DNA from: Nitrosospira sp. 56-18
Lineage (GTDB): Bacteria > Pseudomonadota > Gammaproteobacteria > Burkholderiales > Nitrosomonadaceae
Length of the DNA: 34,705 nt
Assembly (NCBI GenBank): GCA_001899235.1
Contig: MKVR01000004.1
Coordinates: 1-34,705 of the forward strand
Direction of reading: 5' to 3'
In this document: piece after piece, positions 732-30,235 of the stretch
Layout of the letters: the number at the start of each line of letters is the position of its first letter
Numbering within the stretch: position 1 is the first letter of the stretch
Notes under the pieces: model-generated
What the model saw: the letters and a program-made list of their open reading frames with translations, nothing else
What the model was told of the DNA's origin: nothing
The model's database searches: none
Made by a program: the position numbers and the translations under genes

Positions 732-887
732 AGGGAACCGCTGAACAAATCTCTGCTGGCGCGACGGCGGCTTTGTGGGATGGGATGTGCAAAAGAGCGG
801 CGACACGAAGGATTGAGCCGCGTCTTCCGAAGCAAGATGCGGTCCCGCAGCAGAATGCCTGCACCCCAACAATACTGTAGTACGGTC
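732..887 (+). repeat. Diverged partial copy of the 28287-28715 element
   Basis: About 156 bp align with the left part of the element at 28287-28715. Shared landmarks in order are AGGGAA-CGCTGAACAAATCT, GCTGGCGCG, GGGATGGGATG, GTCTTCCGAAG (TCTTCCGAAG here), AGATGCG, GAATGCCTGC / GGATGCCTGC, CCCCAACAA and GTACGGTCGA. An 11-base gap and scattered substitutions separate the two. The right inverted-repeat end is absent, so this copy is truncated or decayed. It fills most of the 272-bp space between the EF-hand gene and aroK; nothing else was recognised there. Confidence 0.8.
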
Positions 888-957
888 GATACGGCTTTCA
901 TCGCTTGGCACCCGGCGGAACTCCGTTCGTCGATGATGGCAATTCCGTTACAATTGC

Positions 958-4881: not shown

Positions 4882-6954
<2,073 letters not shown>

Positions 6955-25504: not shown

Positions 25505-28225
25505 TCAATAGCTGAAGGCGGCCTCGACCAGATAAGTGCGTTGCGGATAAGGATGGAATACGAAAGCCTGATCGTTATTGATATTGGTAATACCGAATGA
25601 AACCCGGCTCTTCAGGCCATTCTGCAGCTTGAATCGGTAACTGGTCTTGAAGTCCATGAAGAAGAAGTCGCTTTGCGCGCCGAAAACGTTGTTTACAAAA
25701 TCCTTGTTATCCAGATCGTTGAATGAATCGCTGGTGTAACGCCCGGAGAACGATATGTCCCATGCTTCGGTAGCATTGTAGGTGACAAAGAAGTTGGCAC
25801 GCCAGTGGGGCAGGCGGATGCGCTGCTTGCCGGTGAGATTAAAACTATCTGGTCCCAATGGATTCAGATCGGTTAGAGTGGGAGTGGGCGGGACATGGTT
25901 GGGAGCTGTGAAGTTGATCAACGGTCCCTTGTCCACCTTCGCATTCATCCAGGTCCCGTTGAACATGAAATCAAATTTTGAACCGAAGATGCGGCGCTGG
26001 TCTAAAATCAACTCGACTCCTGTGGTGCTGGTCTGGTCGATATTCTGGAATGAGCTCTGGGTCAACACTCCCGAGGCGCTAAGCACCTGCTGAATTGCAT
26101 CCTTGATATCGTCGCGGAAGGCATTCACGCGGATATAACCGCGCGGCAACCCATATTCCACCATGAAGTTATGGTGCACACCGTTCTCAGGCTTGAGATT
26201 GGCATTCGCTGCAACAATCATCGTCGGGCTGCTGAGCGACTGGAACAGCTCCGCAATGACGGGAAACCGATGCGCCCGGCCGAAGGAATAGCGGATTTTC
26301 CAGGGTCCAGGTTCGTAGCCCAGCGAGACCTTGGGGGAAAGCGCGGATACTGCCCGATCCGGCACTGGGGTGCTTTGAGAGGAACCGCTGCCAACAACAC
26401 CGTTCATGGCTGACCACCACTCCTGGCGAGCGCCCACGGTCACGTCCCAGTTCGGCAGGAAACGATATGCCGATTGGGCAAAAATCGCATGGGTCGAGGT
26501 CTGTCCGTCATTATTCCTGCCGGCTTGCAGCGCTCCCCGGGTCATGGTGGCATAGTCCAGCAAGGAATACTGGCGGAAGCTCAAGGTATACAGGTCAAAG
26601 TGATACCCGCCGAGCAGGGAAATCTTTTCGTTCCCGAATAATGCCGGGGTGCTTATCTTGAGATCGTAATTCAACCAGCTGAACTTCTTGAAATCCTGAA
26701 GCTGGCCCGTACCGTTCCCATCTGAATCAGCGGGATTGAAGAATGCGGTTGCGCGAACATCTTTGAGAACGTCAAAGTGGCTGATGGTGCTATCGATGTT
26801 CCAGTTAGGGGTTAGCGCACCACGAAGTTGCAAGCCGAGATTCAGAGTCTCGCGCTTGTCCGAGCTAAAACCAAATCCCCGGTTAAGGACATCAAATGTC
26901 GAACCATCAAAATTTGCATTAGGCAGTGTCTTCGGCTGAGTTTGAGCAGCATTCTGCGGCCCGCCATAAAATGGCTGCCCTGCATTGTCCTGCAAATAAT
27001 TACGCGGATGATTCTGGTTGCGCGTCCTGTCTTCATAGGCCACCGTGAAAATTGTCTGGAGATCGGAGGTGATATCGTAGCCCAGCTTGCCCTTGAACAA
27101 ATGCGTGTTTACTTTTTCTGGTCCGGTATCGCCGTAAATGATGCTCGGCGTGCCGCGGGTGTCAGGTGTGCGAATCCCGCCGTTGACCGCCGTCGTGCCA
27201 TCGGTAGGTATATGCCCTCCCAGTCCCGTATTGTCGATAAAATAAGTCATGGGATGGCCCTGCGCTTCAAGACGGTTGTAGGACAGGAATACCGTCAGCA
27301 CGTCCTTGATGCGGTTGCCATAGGACACGAATTGCCGGTCACCAATGAATGTTCCCTTATCCGGCCCGTAGAGGTTGTAGGGCTGAATGAAGAGGCTGCT
27401 TTCCATGTAAAATTCCTGCTTGCGCGGCATGCGGGTTTTGATATTGACGACCCCGCCAATGGAATTGCCGCTGTATTCGGCCGAGAAAGGGCCATATACG
27501 ACATCGACCGCATCGATTTCGTTGGGACCGACCAGCGACCAGCGCGGCGCGCCGTTGAATGACGCTTGCAGAAAATTATGCAGCGGCAACCCGTCGGCAT
27601 AAACCATGTTGCGCGCGGTCGAAAACATATCCGCGCCGCGAATGCCGAGAACCCCGTTGGGATCACCGACATAACGCTGGCGGATCTGCAGGCTGGGCTG
27701 GTACTTGAGCACTTCCTCCGTGGTCTGCGCGTTCTGGCGCTCGATCTGGGTGCGCGTGACGCGCGTGGAAGGGGAAGTATAGTGGGAATCGCGCTCCACC
27801 TCCCCGGTTACGACCATTTCCTTGAATATCGTTTCTTTCTGAATCACTGGAGGCGCAACCGCGCCTTTTTCCTTGTCCTTATCTCCCGCTGCGTCCTTTT
27901 CGGCTCCCTCGGCATTAACCTCCTTATCAGCAGGAAGGCGCACGGGAGCAGGCGAAGCGGGCGCCACCTGCTTCAACTCGGCCACGTTTCGCGAAACGAT
28001 GGTAGCCGGAATCTCGTGAATTACCGAATTGCTGCTGCCGGCAGTTGGTTTAGCGCTCCCGGAAGCAAGGTATGAGGCGCTATTGGCGCTGGGAAATGCC
28101 GGGGGCGAAACGTTCGGGTTCCCCTCCGGCGCCGGAACGCTGGATTGCTCCATACTTTCCGCGTTGCATGGTGGAACAAGAAATGTGCAAAGCAAACCCG
28201 CCAAGGCGAGGAAAATGGATTTCAT
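25505..28225 (-). CDS. TonB-dependent outer membrane receptor
   Basis: A 906-residue energised outer-membrane channel. It starts with a signal peptide (MKSIFLALAGLLCTFLVPPCNA), then has an unusually long low-complexity periplasmic extension of about 110 residues rich in Pro, Ser, Ala and Lys/Glu. A TonB-box-like segment (KEMVVTGEVE, about 135-145) precedes the plug domain (TEEVLKYQPSLQIRQR ... GIRGADMF ... VVYGPFSAEYSGNSIGGVVNI), followed by a beta barrel ending in the aromatic TYLVEAAFSY. The substrate is not evident from sequence: siderophore, metal or vitamin are all possible. The Asp-box propeller gene lies upstream on the same strand but 822 bp away, across a repeat-rich gap. Confidence 0.93.
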   Translation of the reverse strand: MKSIFLALAGLLCTFLVPPCNAESMEQSSVPAPEGNPNVSPPAFPSANSASYLASGSAKPTAGSSNSVIHEIPATIVSRNVAELKQVAPASPAPVRLPADKEVNAEGAEKDAAGDKDKEKGAVAPPVIQKETIFKEMVVTGEVERDSHYTSPSTRVTRTQIERQNAQTTEEVLKYQPSLQIRQRYVGDPNGVLGIRGADMFSTARNMVYADGLPLHNFLQASFNGAPRWSLVGPNEIDAVDVVYGPFSAEYSGNSIGGVVNIKTRMPRKQEFYMESSLFIQPYNLYGPDKGTFIGDRQFVSYGNRIKDVLTVFLSYNRLEAQGHPMTYFIDNTGLGGHIPTDGTTAVNGGIRTPDTRGTPSIIYGDTGPEKVNTHLFKGKLGYDITSDLQTIFTVAYEDRTRNQNHPRNYLQDNAGQPFYGGPQNAAQTQPKTLPNANFDGSTFDVLNRGFGFSSDKRETLNLGLQLRGALTPNWNIDSTISHFDVLKDVRATAFFNPADSDGNGTGQLQDFKKFSWLNYDLKISTPALFGNEKISLLGGYHFDLYTLSFRQYSLLDYATMTRGALQAGRNNDGQTSTHAIFAQSAYRFLPNWDVTVGARQEWWSAMNGVVGSGSSQSTPVPDRAVSALSPKVSLGYEPGPWKIRYSFGRAHRFPVIAELFQSLSSPTMIVAANANLKPENGVHHNFMVEYGLPRGYIRVNAFRDDIKDAIQQVLSASGVLTQSSFQNIDQTSTTGVELILDQRRIFGSKFDFMFNGTWMNAKVDKGPLINFTAPNHVPPTPTLTDLNPLGPDSFNLTGKQRIRLPHWRANFFVTYNATEAWDISFSGRYTSDSFNDLDNKDFVNNVFGAQSDFFFMDFKTSYRFKLQNGLKSRVSFGITNINNDQAFVFHPYPQRTYLVEAAFSY

Positions 28226-28286
28226 ATTGTTCTAATGCCTTCGCCTGTCTTTAATTTCTAATAACTACCAGCTTATGGATGCTGTT

Positions 28287-28715
28287 CTAGGGAAGCGCTG
28301 AACAAATCTCCGCTGGCGCGGCGGTGGTTTTGCGGGATGGGATGCGCGAAAGGCGACGACGCGAATGGTGCGACCGCGCAGGGCGGAGCAGTGTCTTCCG
28401 AAGGAAGATGCGACCCCGTAGCGGGATGCCTGCGCCCCAACAAAACTGTGGTACGGTCGAAGCATCCCCTCCGCTGCCCGATCCCCGCTCTGCGGGGCCC
28501 CTCGGGCGACGCTCCGGGGCGCTCCTTCGCTAGGAGCCTGACAAGGCAGACCACTCGCAAAGCCCCGCCCCATAAGGGTTGCAGCAAAATCGAGCACTCA
28601 TGGCGTTGCGCTCCTTGGCATCGTAGTCCCAGCTACGACCTGCGTCGCGCGCCTTATGATCATCCCAATTTTGCCAGCAACGCGCTCAGTGAGGATTTGT
28701 TCAGCGCTTCCCTAG
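28287..28715. mobile_element. 429-bp transposase-less element with 21-bp terminal inverted repeats (MITE-like)
   Basis: The first 21 bases (starting CTAGGGAAGCGCTGAACAAA) are repeated exactly in reverse complement at the last 21 (28695-28715), with weaker pairing continuing inward. The interior carries no convincing gene but includes hairpins: CCCCGC-TCT-GCGGGG near 28483-28498 and CGTAG-TCCCAG-CTACG within 28619-28656. A clear target-site duplication is not visible. The left 170 bp match a diverged copy at 732-887. It sits between the propeller gene and the TonB receptor gene. Confidence 0.75.
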
Positions 28716-28743
28716 GAACTGTTAATATTTGTTACGCACCCGC

Positions 28744-28844
28744 GTTGCTGTGCGAAAAAACATGAGGGCAAGGCGCGAAGCGCAGGGCATAGCCGGCCTA
28801 TGGCCCAGCTTTGCAACACCGCACCCACGTTTTTTCGTGCGCAA
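28744..28844. repeat. 100-bp imperfect foldback next to the MITE-like element
   Basis: The arm GTTGCTGTGCGAAAAAAC at the left pairs with GTTTTTTCGTGCGCAAC at the right, and the centre GGGCATAGCCGGCCTATGGCCC is nearly palindromic. The central segment AAGGCGCGAAGCGCAGGGC (from 28770) resembles the reverse complement of the MITE-like element at 28619-28656 (AAGGCGCGCGACGCAGGTC, then TAGC-GG and its palindrome half). The remaining bases up to 29047 show no gene or further structure. Confidence 0.55.
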
Positions 28845-29047
28845 CCCGGGAGGACGGGACGGAATTTCACCCAACCCATCGTTACTCGCCGCTTGCAGAC
28901 CTTGCTCTGCTGCGCGGCTCGTACCTTGTTCCGACTGAAATCCATCGCCGTCATGGGTGAGAAACAAGTATCAACAGGCCATAGTATGCTTTTAACATAC
29001 CATGTCATTCTTTTTACCGGAAAACCGTTTTATCCCTGCTCCTGAAA
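28845..29047. other. Remainder of the 822-bp gap between the propeller and TonB-receptor genes
   Basis: About 200 bp with short, non-family open frames only. No promoter or terminator recognised. It may be the rest of an older insertion, as its left part is the foldback. Confidence 0.4.
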
Positions 29048-30235
29048 TCATCTCCCGGTCAACCGGTCGAACCGCAAGACCCGCAGGCCTTCGGTTGCGG
29101 TATTCCACACCACCAGGACCTTATCGCGGTCGATCAACGGAACTGGATAGTCGGTCGCCCCGGCAGATTCCATCAAACGCTGAGGTTCGCTCCAGGATTC
29201 TCCCGAATCATTGGAGTACATCATTTGTGCGGAGTAGGCGGTACCGTCGAACTCGCGCCAGGTCAGGAGAACCGTCCTGCCATCAGCGGCAACCCAGGCA
29301 TGGTTTGCCTGCGCCGCGGCATTGCCGATAGCAAGCGGTTCCGATTGCCAGTTGCCTTCCATTCTTCTGTAGAACAATCCCTGGCGAACCGTTCCATTTG
29401 TAAACCAGGCGAGGTGCAACTGGCCCCGCCCATCGACTGCGATGCTGCCCCCGTTATGGGGACAGGCATCGATTTTCCATTCGTCGCGAGTGGCGCGGCG
29501 CACCCACCCTTTGTCCAGGTATGCAATCGCGAAGTCGCGCGTATTGGTATCGAAAATATTTCGCCAGAAAACTATCGGACCCTCGCCGGTCCACGCCGTG
29601 GCGATACGGCAGCATTCGCACGTATGCTGCTGGAATCTCCGGTTAGCGCCGAAACTTGCGCCATTGTCGCCGGACCTGGCGGTGTAGATCGATACGCCAG
29701 AAAACGCTTCGCCTTTTTCCTTTGCGGCATCCCGGTCGCGGGCATCCAGCCACGCCACAACCGCACCGCCTGTGCCATTGATCGCCAGCGTGTCGAAACG
29801 ATGGCTGGTCACCCGGCCGTCATCATTCAAGGTAATGGGCGGGGAAAAGGTCCGTCCGGAATCGATGGAACGCGCAAAGCGGACATTTCCGGCATATTTC
29901 TGCGGGAGCGACTGTATCCAGGTCAAAAGGATAGCGCCATCGCGCGCCACGGCAATCTTCGGCCGATTTTCCCCATCCGCCGGGATATTTTCAGGTTCAG
30001 ACGTAACCATGACCGGGCTGGAAAAATTCTCTCCCCCATCGTCCGACCAGGAAACCAGCAGGCGCTGATCTTCCACTTTCGCCACCCATAGCCGTCCCTG
30101 CTGATCCAGCGTGGCGCCAACCGCCAGTGTTGTTTTTGGGGGCCGAGGCTTGGCGGCATCCTGGCTCTCGGGGTCAGGGTGGCTTGCAAGCGCGGCTGTC
30201 GCACTCAACATTAAAATGGCGATAATTCGGATCAT
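29048..30235 (-). CDS. Exported Asp-box (BNR/sialidase-like) beta-propeller protein with CxCC motif
   Basis: A 395-residue protein with a signal peptide (MIRIIAILMLSATAALA). It has four Asp-box repeats: SDDGGENF (64-71), SIDSGRTF (123-130), SGDNGASF (188-195) and SNDSGESW (341-348). These mark a sialidase-type propeller, but I did not see the arginine triad context of a true sialidase, so enzymatic sialidase activity should not be assumed. A cluster HTCECC (204-209) and a CPH motif (258-260) bring three Cys, a fourth Cys and two His that could bind a metal or form disulfides. ATG 30235 is preceded by a strong GGAGG. RIO-kinase gene lies upstream and the TonB receptor downstream. Confidence 0.8.
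   Translation of the reverse strand: MIRIIAILMLSATAALASHPDPESQDAAKPRPPKTTLAVGATLDQQGRLWVAKVEDQRLLVSWSDDGGENFSSPVMVTSEPENIPADGENRPKIAVARDGAILLTWIQSLPQKYAGNVRFARSIDSGRTFSPPITLNDDGRVTSHRFDTLAINGTGGAVVAWLDARDRDAAKEKGEAFSGVSIYTARSGDNGASFGANRRFQQHTCECCRIATAWTGEGPIVFWRNIFDTNTRDFAIAYLDKGWVRRATRDEWKIDACPHNGGSIAVDGRGQLHLAWFTNGTVRQGLFYRRMEGNWQSEPLAIGNAAAQANHAWVAADGRTVLLTWREFDGTAYSAQMMYSNDSGESWSEPQRLMESAGATDYPVPLIDRDKVLVVWNTATEGLRVLRFDRLTGR

Follow-up and report, generated by a model that had tools for sequence, protein, structure and literature searches.

A probable MITE with IS5-type ends and a modular interior, dispersed in the genome of Nitrosospira sp. 56-18

Introduction

Intergenic repeats with IS5-like ends have been described as BrickBuilt in Porphyromonas gingivalis and ATR in Neisseria; in the accessible parts of PMC4596501, both are given as free of a transposase or its remnant, and BrickBuilt as containing internal repeats. 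In Streptococcus, the dispersed BOX repeats are built of modules, those at the ends being fixed and those inside varying in number, and in S. suis the same boxB lies between two different end sets (PMC3049150, in its accessible parts). TIMEs of Pseudomonas, which are MITEs with Tn3 ends, are described in the available text of PMC4133298 as non-autonomous mosaics carrying the ends of a known transposon family. YTAR is a highly conserved target duplication of IS5 (PMC10359306, accessible text), which belongs with ISKpn26 and IS2000 to the IS5 group. As far as these partial sources go, MITEs with IS5 ends are already known, and so are modular repeats with inner modules between different ends, as in BOX.

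The window analysed here is the whole 34,705-nucleotide stretch of contig MKVR01000004.1 (positions 1 to 34,705, forward strand; assembly GCA_001899235.1) of Nitrosospira sp. 56-18. A first-pass annotation of the window had read one of its repeats as a MITE moved in trans by a transposase encoded elsewhere, or else as a REP-like family. The former reading is supported by the copies in the genome, an IS with the same ends and relatives without the insertion. We conclude that the repeat is very probably a non-autonomous MITE that was moved in trans by an IS5-family DDE transposase and has a modular interior with an apparent guest, block B. Among the titles and abstracts listed, which included few subscription papers, none dealt with this Nitrosospira repeat family.

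Results

Limits of the element and its terminal repeats

The repeat had been delimited as a 429-bp element with perfect 21-bp terminal inverted repeats. Exact complementarity was found, over 22 bases instead of 21 (28287-28308 versus 28694-28715; 90% over 29), and the outer CTAG proved to be the target duplication. CTAG was mistaken for inverted repeat because it is palindromic, and it lies outside the element because other copies carry TTAG/TTAG (L002) or CTAA/CTAA (L004, L026 and L148) in that position. Once both CTAG copies are excluded, the element proper is 421 bp long (28291-28711), with a terminal inverted repeat of 18 bp that is exact at 18/18 positions, GGAAGCGCTGAACAAATC. This 18-mer occurs three times in the window at ≤3 mismatches, versus 0.04 expected. 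Coordinates are given in Table 1.

Table 1. Features of the window, and loci where the exact end adjoins a transposase gene.
Feature	Position	Strand	Details
Truncated, diverged second copy	734..889	+	Block A at 85.5% and first part of block B at 85%
TonB-dependent receptor gene	25505..28225	-	Pfam PF00593, PF07715
Target duplication, left copy	28287..28290	.	CTAG, type YTAR; TTAA, CTAA or TTAG in other copies
Left terminal inverted repeat	28291..28308	+	18 bp, GGAAGCGCTGAACAAATC; identical to transposase-side IS end in L117, L268, L272
Block A (left shell)	28291..28369	+	From copy comparison
Block B, guest module	28370..28521	+	Imperfect hairpins at ~28370-28429 and ~28466-28522, variable spacer between
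Block C	28522..28596	+	From copy comparison
Block D (right shell)	28597..28711	+	From copy comparison
Right terminal inverted repeat	28694..28711	-	18 bp, exact complement of left repeat
Target duplication, right copy	28712..28715	.	CTAG, read directly
BNR-repeat protein gene	29048..30235	-	Pfam PF13088; kept in genus
Exact 18-mer with transposase gene, same genus			L093/L115/L268 (one place, G110, Nitrosovibrio sp. Nv6)
Exact 18-mer with transposase gene, same genus			L272 (Nitrosovibrio sp. Nv4)
Exact 18-mer with transposase gene, genus g3			L116, L117, L141

Copies and target duplications in the genome

Copies were searched for in the whole genome (3.29 Mb, 54 contigs). The whole-element query gave at least 98 matched pieces, a lower bound because 40 of the 197 first-look candidates were scored. 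At ≤1 mismatch, 15 bases from the end occurred 162 times and their reversed control 0 times, and the two commonest exact variants of this stretch (55 and 65 hits) formed 86 clusters of ends. From 53 candidate end pairs, 44 were kept that were shorter than 430 bp and had ≤4 mismatches in both ends combined, and L174, L159 and L044 (404 bp) were then removed by hand as false pairings, leaving 41 copies with both ends among the genome loci retrieved. A BLAST-type search for multiple copies with the same ends, which the first-pass annotation had proposed as a check, is answered by these copies; its refuting condition, that the sequence occurs nowhere else with conserved ends, does not hold, as the ends recur in dozens of other places. 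The diverged partial copy that it had noticed 27 kb away is likewise real. Plasmids and phages searched with the element gave no match. To see whether copies may interrupt genes, 40 pairs of flanks were joined; the longest stop-to-stop frames across them, delimited by stop codons alone, were 520, 319 and 309 aa.

The 4-mers flanking the element were identical in 23 of the 41 copies and in every such case YTAR (TTAA 11, CTAG 8, CTAA 3, TTAG 1), compared with 8.8 on average and at most 17 in 5000 shuffles. YTAR flanked both sides in 29/41 copies and at least one side in 40/41. Against the MITE reading, the two 4-mers differ in the other 18/41 copies, which may be due to decay or to recombination of one copy with another. 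The best pair of copies was 97.4% identical and the median was 92% over 156 comparable pairs; nothing in the retrieved set therefore points to a very recent burst.

Beside the ORF at 4882-6954 of the window, the segment 4770-4870 also gave weak matches in reverse orientation to block D and block A (80% over 45 bp with E 1.6e-6, and 73% with E 0.007). Judged by these matches, the segment is probably a remnant of another copy.

Modular interior of the element

Comparison of the copies divided the interior into four blocks. Among the 41 copies the block orders were A-B-D (19), A-C-D (10), A-C-B-D (5), A-B-C-D (4, the type of the window element), A-D (2) and C-D (1), the A-B-D and A-C-D counts including some copies with partial blocks. 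The order A-B-C-B-D was found in the relatives L060 and L063. Neither L060 nor L037 contained a tandem array according to TRF.

The whole-element query matched 36/125 genomes of the family, namely 22/23 of this genus, 9 of genus g3 (several of these matches being weak) and 5 of genus g4. All four copies read in genus g4 were A-C-D, and L081 and L082 of genus g3 aligned along all 272 bp of an A-C-D copy (75% and 72%, respectively), so that the A-C-D shell is present in three genera. Block B was found in 21/23 genomes of this genus and in 0/102 other genomes of the family. Because A-C-D spans three genera and B one, A-C-D is probably the older form, which B joined within this genus. The widespread A-C-D shell would have taken up the two-hairpin B on one or both sides of C, and deletion or recombination between two B copies round C may have produced A-B-D.

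IS5-type transposases with the same ends

The genus was searched for DDE_Tnp_1, with matches in 17/23 genomes, and the family with a transposase fragment, with matches in 66/125. In two genomes from the same genus, and in three from genus g3, the exact 18-mer adjoins a transposase gene of IS5 type (Table 1); in the remaining scanned transposase loci the ends were mostly diverged or absent, L120/L269 having an end with one mismatch. L117 contains an end-to-end IS of 1186 bp with CTAA on either side, whose second end starts with GGAAGCGCTGA and differs thereafter. L092, an IS from the same genus (1159 bp, CTAG/CTAG), has an open frame of 328 codons, and each of its ends differs from the MITE end at 3/18 positions. 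The L093 protein fragment and L092 scored 260 and 320 bits, respectively, with NCBIfam NF033581 (transpos_IS5_4; cut-off 140), and the transposase fragment was ~53% identical to named relatives on plasmids, including ISKpn26 and IS2000. The source of the ends thus has both an IS5_4 transposase and the YTAR duplication of the IS5 family.

The full-length IS with the same ends that had been asked for earlier has its counterpart in L117 and in the exact 18-mer at these genes, which are broken or incomplete. In L117, L120/L269 and L268 the transposase frame is interrupted at different points, which we interpret as decay and not as programmed frameshifting; the L116 transposase has an internal stop and that of L141 is partial. 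Among the loci scanned in the genus and the family, none combined the exact 18-bp end with an intact transposase. In the genome of the window, an autonomous copy was sought and rejected, since the IS5_4-type transposase fragment and PF05598 each gave 0 matches and none of the seven places with PF01609 (DDE_Tnp_1) had an end nearby at ≤4 mismatches. Since every exact-end transposase gene seen is damaged or partial and the window's genome yielded no such gene, the family is probably idle there, the most similar pair of compared copies being 97.4% identical.

The window element could have been the decayed remainder of a single IS after internal deletion, having ends identical to those of an IS5-type IS, instead of a MITE with an interior of its own. 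We consider this very unlikely: similarity to the 1186-bp L117 IS, the only IS compared, was confined to 18-19 bp at the ends with nothing significant inside, and the interior is common to three genera as A-C-D. The element has the characters of a MITE, being short and without transposase, with inverted repeats, a duplication of fixed length, dispersed copies and the ends of an autonomous element. The copies, their ends and duplications and the absence from relatives are observed; from the shared ends we infer the transposition step and its enzyme. An IS5-family DDE transposase encoded elsewhere would bind the 18-bp ends and insert the element at a YTAR site, with a 4-bp duplication as the result. 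The site used here would be the CTAG between the BNR-protein and TonB receptor genes.

Beside IS5-type IS of genus g3, in L125 (793-935) and L129 (2427-2569), a 143-bp element was observed that is flanked by YTAR at either end and has termini resembling GGAAGCGCTGATTAATTC; it is perhaps another MITE family.

Insertion site and flanking genes

The element lies 65 bp, and the duplication 61 bp, from the start of the TonB receptor gene. The BNR-protein query matched 22/22 other genomes of the genus (G108 weakly), and the TonB receptor gene was next to the BNR gene in 21/22. The gap between the two genes is 825 bp in the window; in the 17 of 21 relatives measured it was about 113-156 bp in 13, 267 bp in one and 405-425 bp in three. 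None of the 23 relative loci (L199-L221) had an element end at ≤4 mismatches, and the ends were thus present in the gap of 0/21 gene-pair loci. Relatives that keep the gene pair without the insertion, which had been suggested as a further check, are thus at hand. On the TonB side (minus strand), the window sequence CTAG AACAGC aligned with L199, L200, L201, L202 and L219, as for example in L201, CTAAAACAGC. The opposite flank did not align with relatives; another repeat has altered the window sequence there, and the empty site is therefore clean on one side only.

Elsewhere in this gap, old and degenerate relatives of the element were found in L199, L202 and, more weakly, L200 (E 1.7e-7, 3e-6 and 0.008, respectively). 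The gap has thus been hit more than once and is not free of the family. The earlier suggestion that the flanking genes were once cotranscribed is plausible from the short gap of 13/17 relatives measured.

A second dispersed repeat, with an inverted hairpin seen by eye, adjoins the MITE at 28767-28986. Copies resembling it were located near other MITEs in L148 (268-486), L027 (1125-1241) and L178 (904-1032), the search having covered only loci collected for the analyses above, so that this nearness may be a sampling effect.

Coding, folding and regulatory content

That the interior holds no credible gene agrees with our results: of the three ORFs of ≥80 aa that overlap the element, the two other than the 104-aa frame had no NCBIfam match. 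The strong hairpins reported inside agree with fold z-scores of -5.4 as DNA and -6.9 as RNA, both partly due to the inverted ends. A promoter or terminator role was considered and rejected: at 28000-29100, one promoter-like and two terminator-like sites were predicted against shuffle means of 0.5 and 1.6, respectively.

A strong predicted fold would also be expected if the repeat served the gene pair as a conserved functional RNA or as a regulatory element and were maintained for its fold; block B shows good conservation from species to species, an alignment of 26 chosen units having 44 invariant columns, and the same gap holds the old degenerate relatives in three genomes. Several results oppose such a function. 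The Rfam search of the element gave no match up to E 1, the covariation term of block B was 0.02 with two-sided change in 4/37 predicted pairs, dozens of copies lie at other places, and the ends are missing from the gap in 21/21 relatives with the gene pair. The last result also removes the earlier refuting condition of a conserved RNA at the same location in all relatives. RNA function was rejected on the Rfam and covariation results, and we regard this explanation as extremely improbable; a MITE moved in trans remains the preferred reading.

Block B outside the MITE

Block B consists of two hairpins in about 152 bp. In the window's genome, the block B query gave at least 42 matched pieces when 40 of its 73 candidates were scored, and among eight pieces beyond the known MITE copies seven adjoin A, C or D, while L278 is a partial B alone. 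In the relatives L069 and L074-L078, B lies in the middle of another hairpin repeat. The relatives L223, L227 and L313-L317 carry tandem B arrays whose periods range from 99 to 152 bp and whose units match each other at 92-99%, and single hairpins form arrays separately, the second hairpin in L314 and the first in L313 and L315. In the arrays of L223, L314 and L316, of B or one hairpin, 3-5 copies with 96-99% within-array matches were observed, and by eye the L223 array apparently starts right after the stop codon of a gene.

These hairpins and arrays give part of the REP-like alternative its due: block B is two-hairpin and BIME-like in its arrays, whereas the whole element has DDE-type ends. 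If the repeat were moved as a REP/BIME by a RAYT (REP-associated tyrosine transposase) instead of a DDE enzyme, a RAYT gene near B might be expected, and in L224 (305-690 and the locus end) two B units do lie beside a RAYT-like gene. The GTAGG...GCGAAGCGC repeats near these units look by eye like classical REPs. Apart from L224, B was near a Y1_Tnp gene at one of 30 loci examined among 51 listed, and there (L265) it was an ordinary MITE copy. A Y1_Tnp match was absent from up to 10 of the 21 B-carrying genomes, ten being an upper figure because one of them is G115, home of the L224 RAYT-like frame that the search left unscored. RAYT as mover of B, suggested by L224, was thus not supported at the 30 places, and the whole element carries DDE-type inverted ends with 4-bp duplications; we hold a RAYT-moved REP/BIME to be highly unlikely.

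In the MITE, block B looks like a guest. Its settings outside the MITE suggest, as a tentative and rather doubtful proposal, that B is a genus-specific mobile repeat using carriers, which may have entered at least one further hairpin repeat besides the IS5-type MITE and may amplify in tandem. If B itself is mobile, the window element would be a composite with two mobility layers, a DDE-moved shell and an enzyme-moved hairpin guest.

Discussion

In conclusion, the present reading explains a large repeat family of ammonia oxidisers and supplies its exact ends, its target and its likely enzyme. The shell in three genera and the guest found in one suggest that repeats of independent origin were assembled in one MITE.

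Compared with the IS5 group, the window element lacks a transposase and the related fragment is ~53% identical to the named plasmid members, while the YTAR duplication and a transposase of the IS5_4 model are common to that group and the end source. BrickBuilt and ATR, as described in the accessible text of PMC4596501, differ from the window MITE in ends, host and interior, the latter consisting here of interchangeable blocks; the duplications of BrickBuilt vary in length and sequence there, whereas those of the window MITE are regular 4-bp YTAR. TIMEs differ by Tn3-type ends and duplications of 5-6 bp (PMC4133298, accessible parts). With REP/BIME sequences, block B shares paired hairpins and tandem arrays, but no general RAYT link was found at the loci examined (30 of 51), and the whole element has DDE-type ends.

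The closest parallel to the interior is BOX, in which one inner module between two end sets resembles the behaviour of block B. In the available text of PMC3049150, BOX has limited similarity to an end of ISSpn2, below that of RUP to its IS, whereas the window MITE matches an IS exactly over 18 bp; compared with what is described there for BOX, the inner block B also forms tandem arrays of its own. Given the similar arrangement in BOX, as far as that source describes it, the modular design is not a new principle; what is combined here is exact IS5-type ends, an interior resembling that of BOX and a guest repeat with further occurrences outside the MITE.
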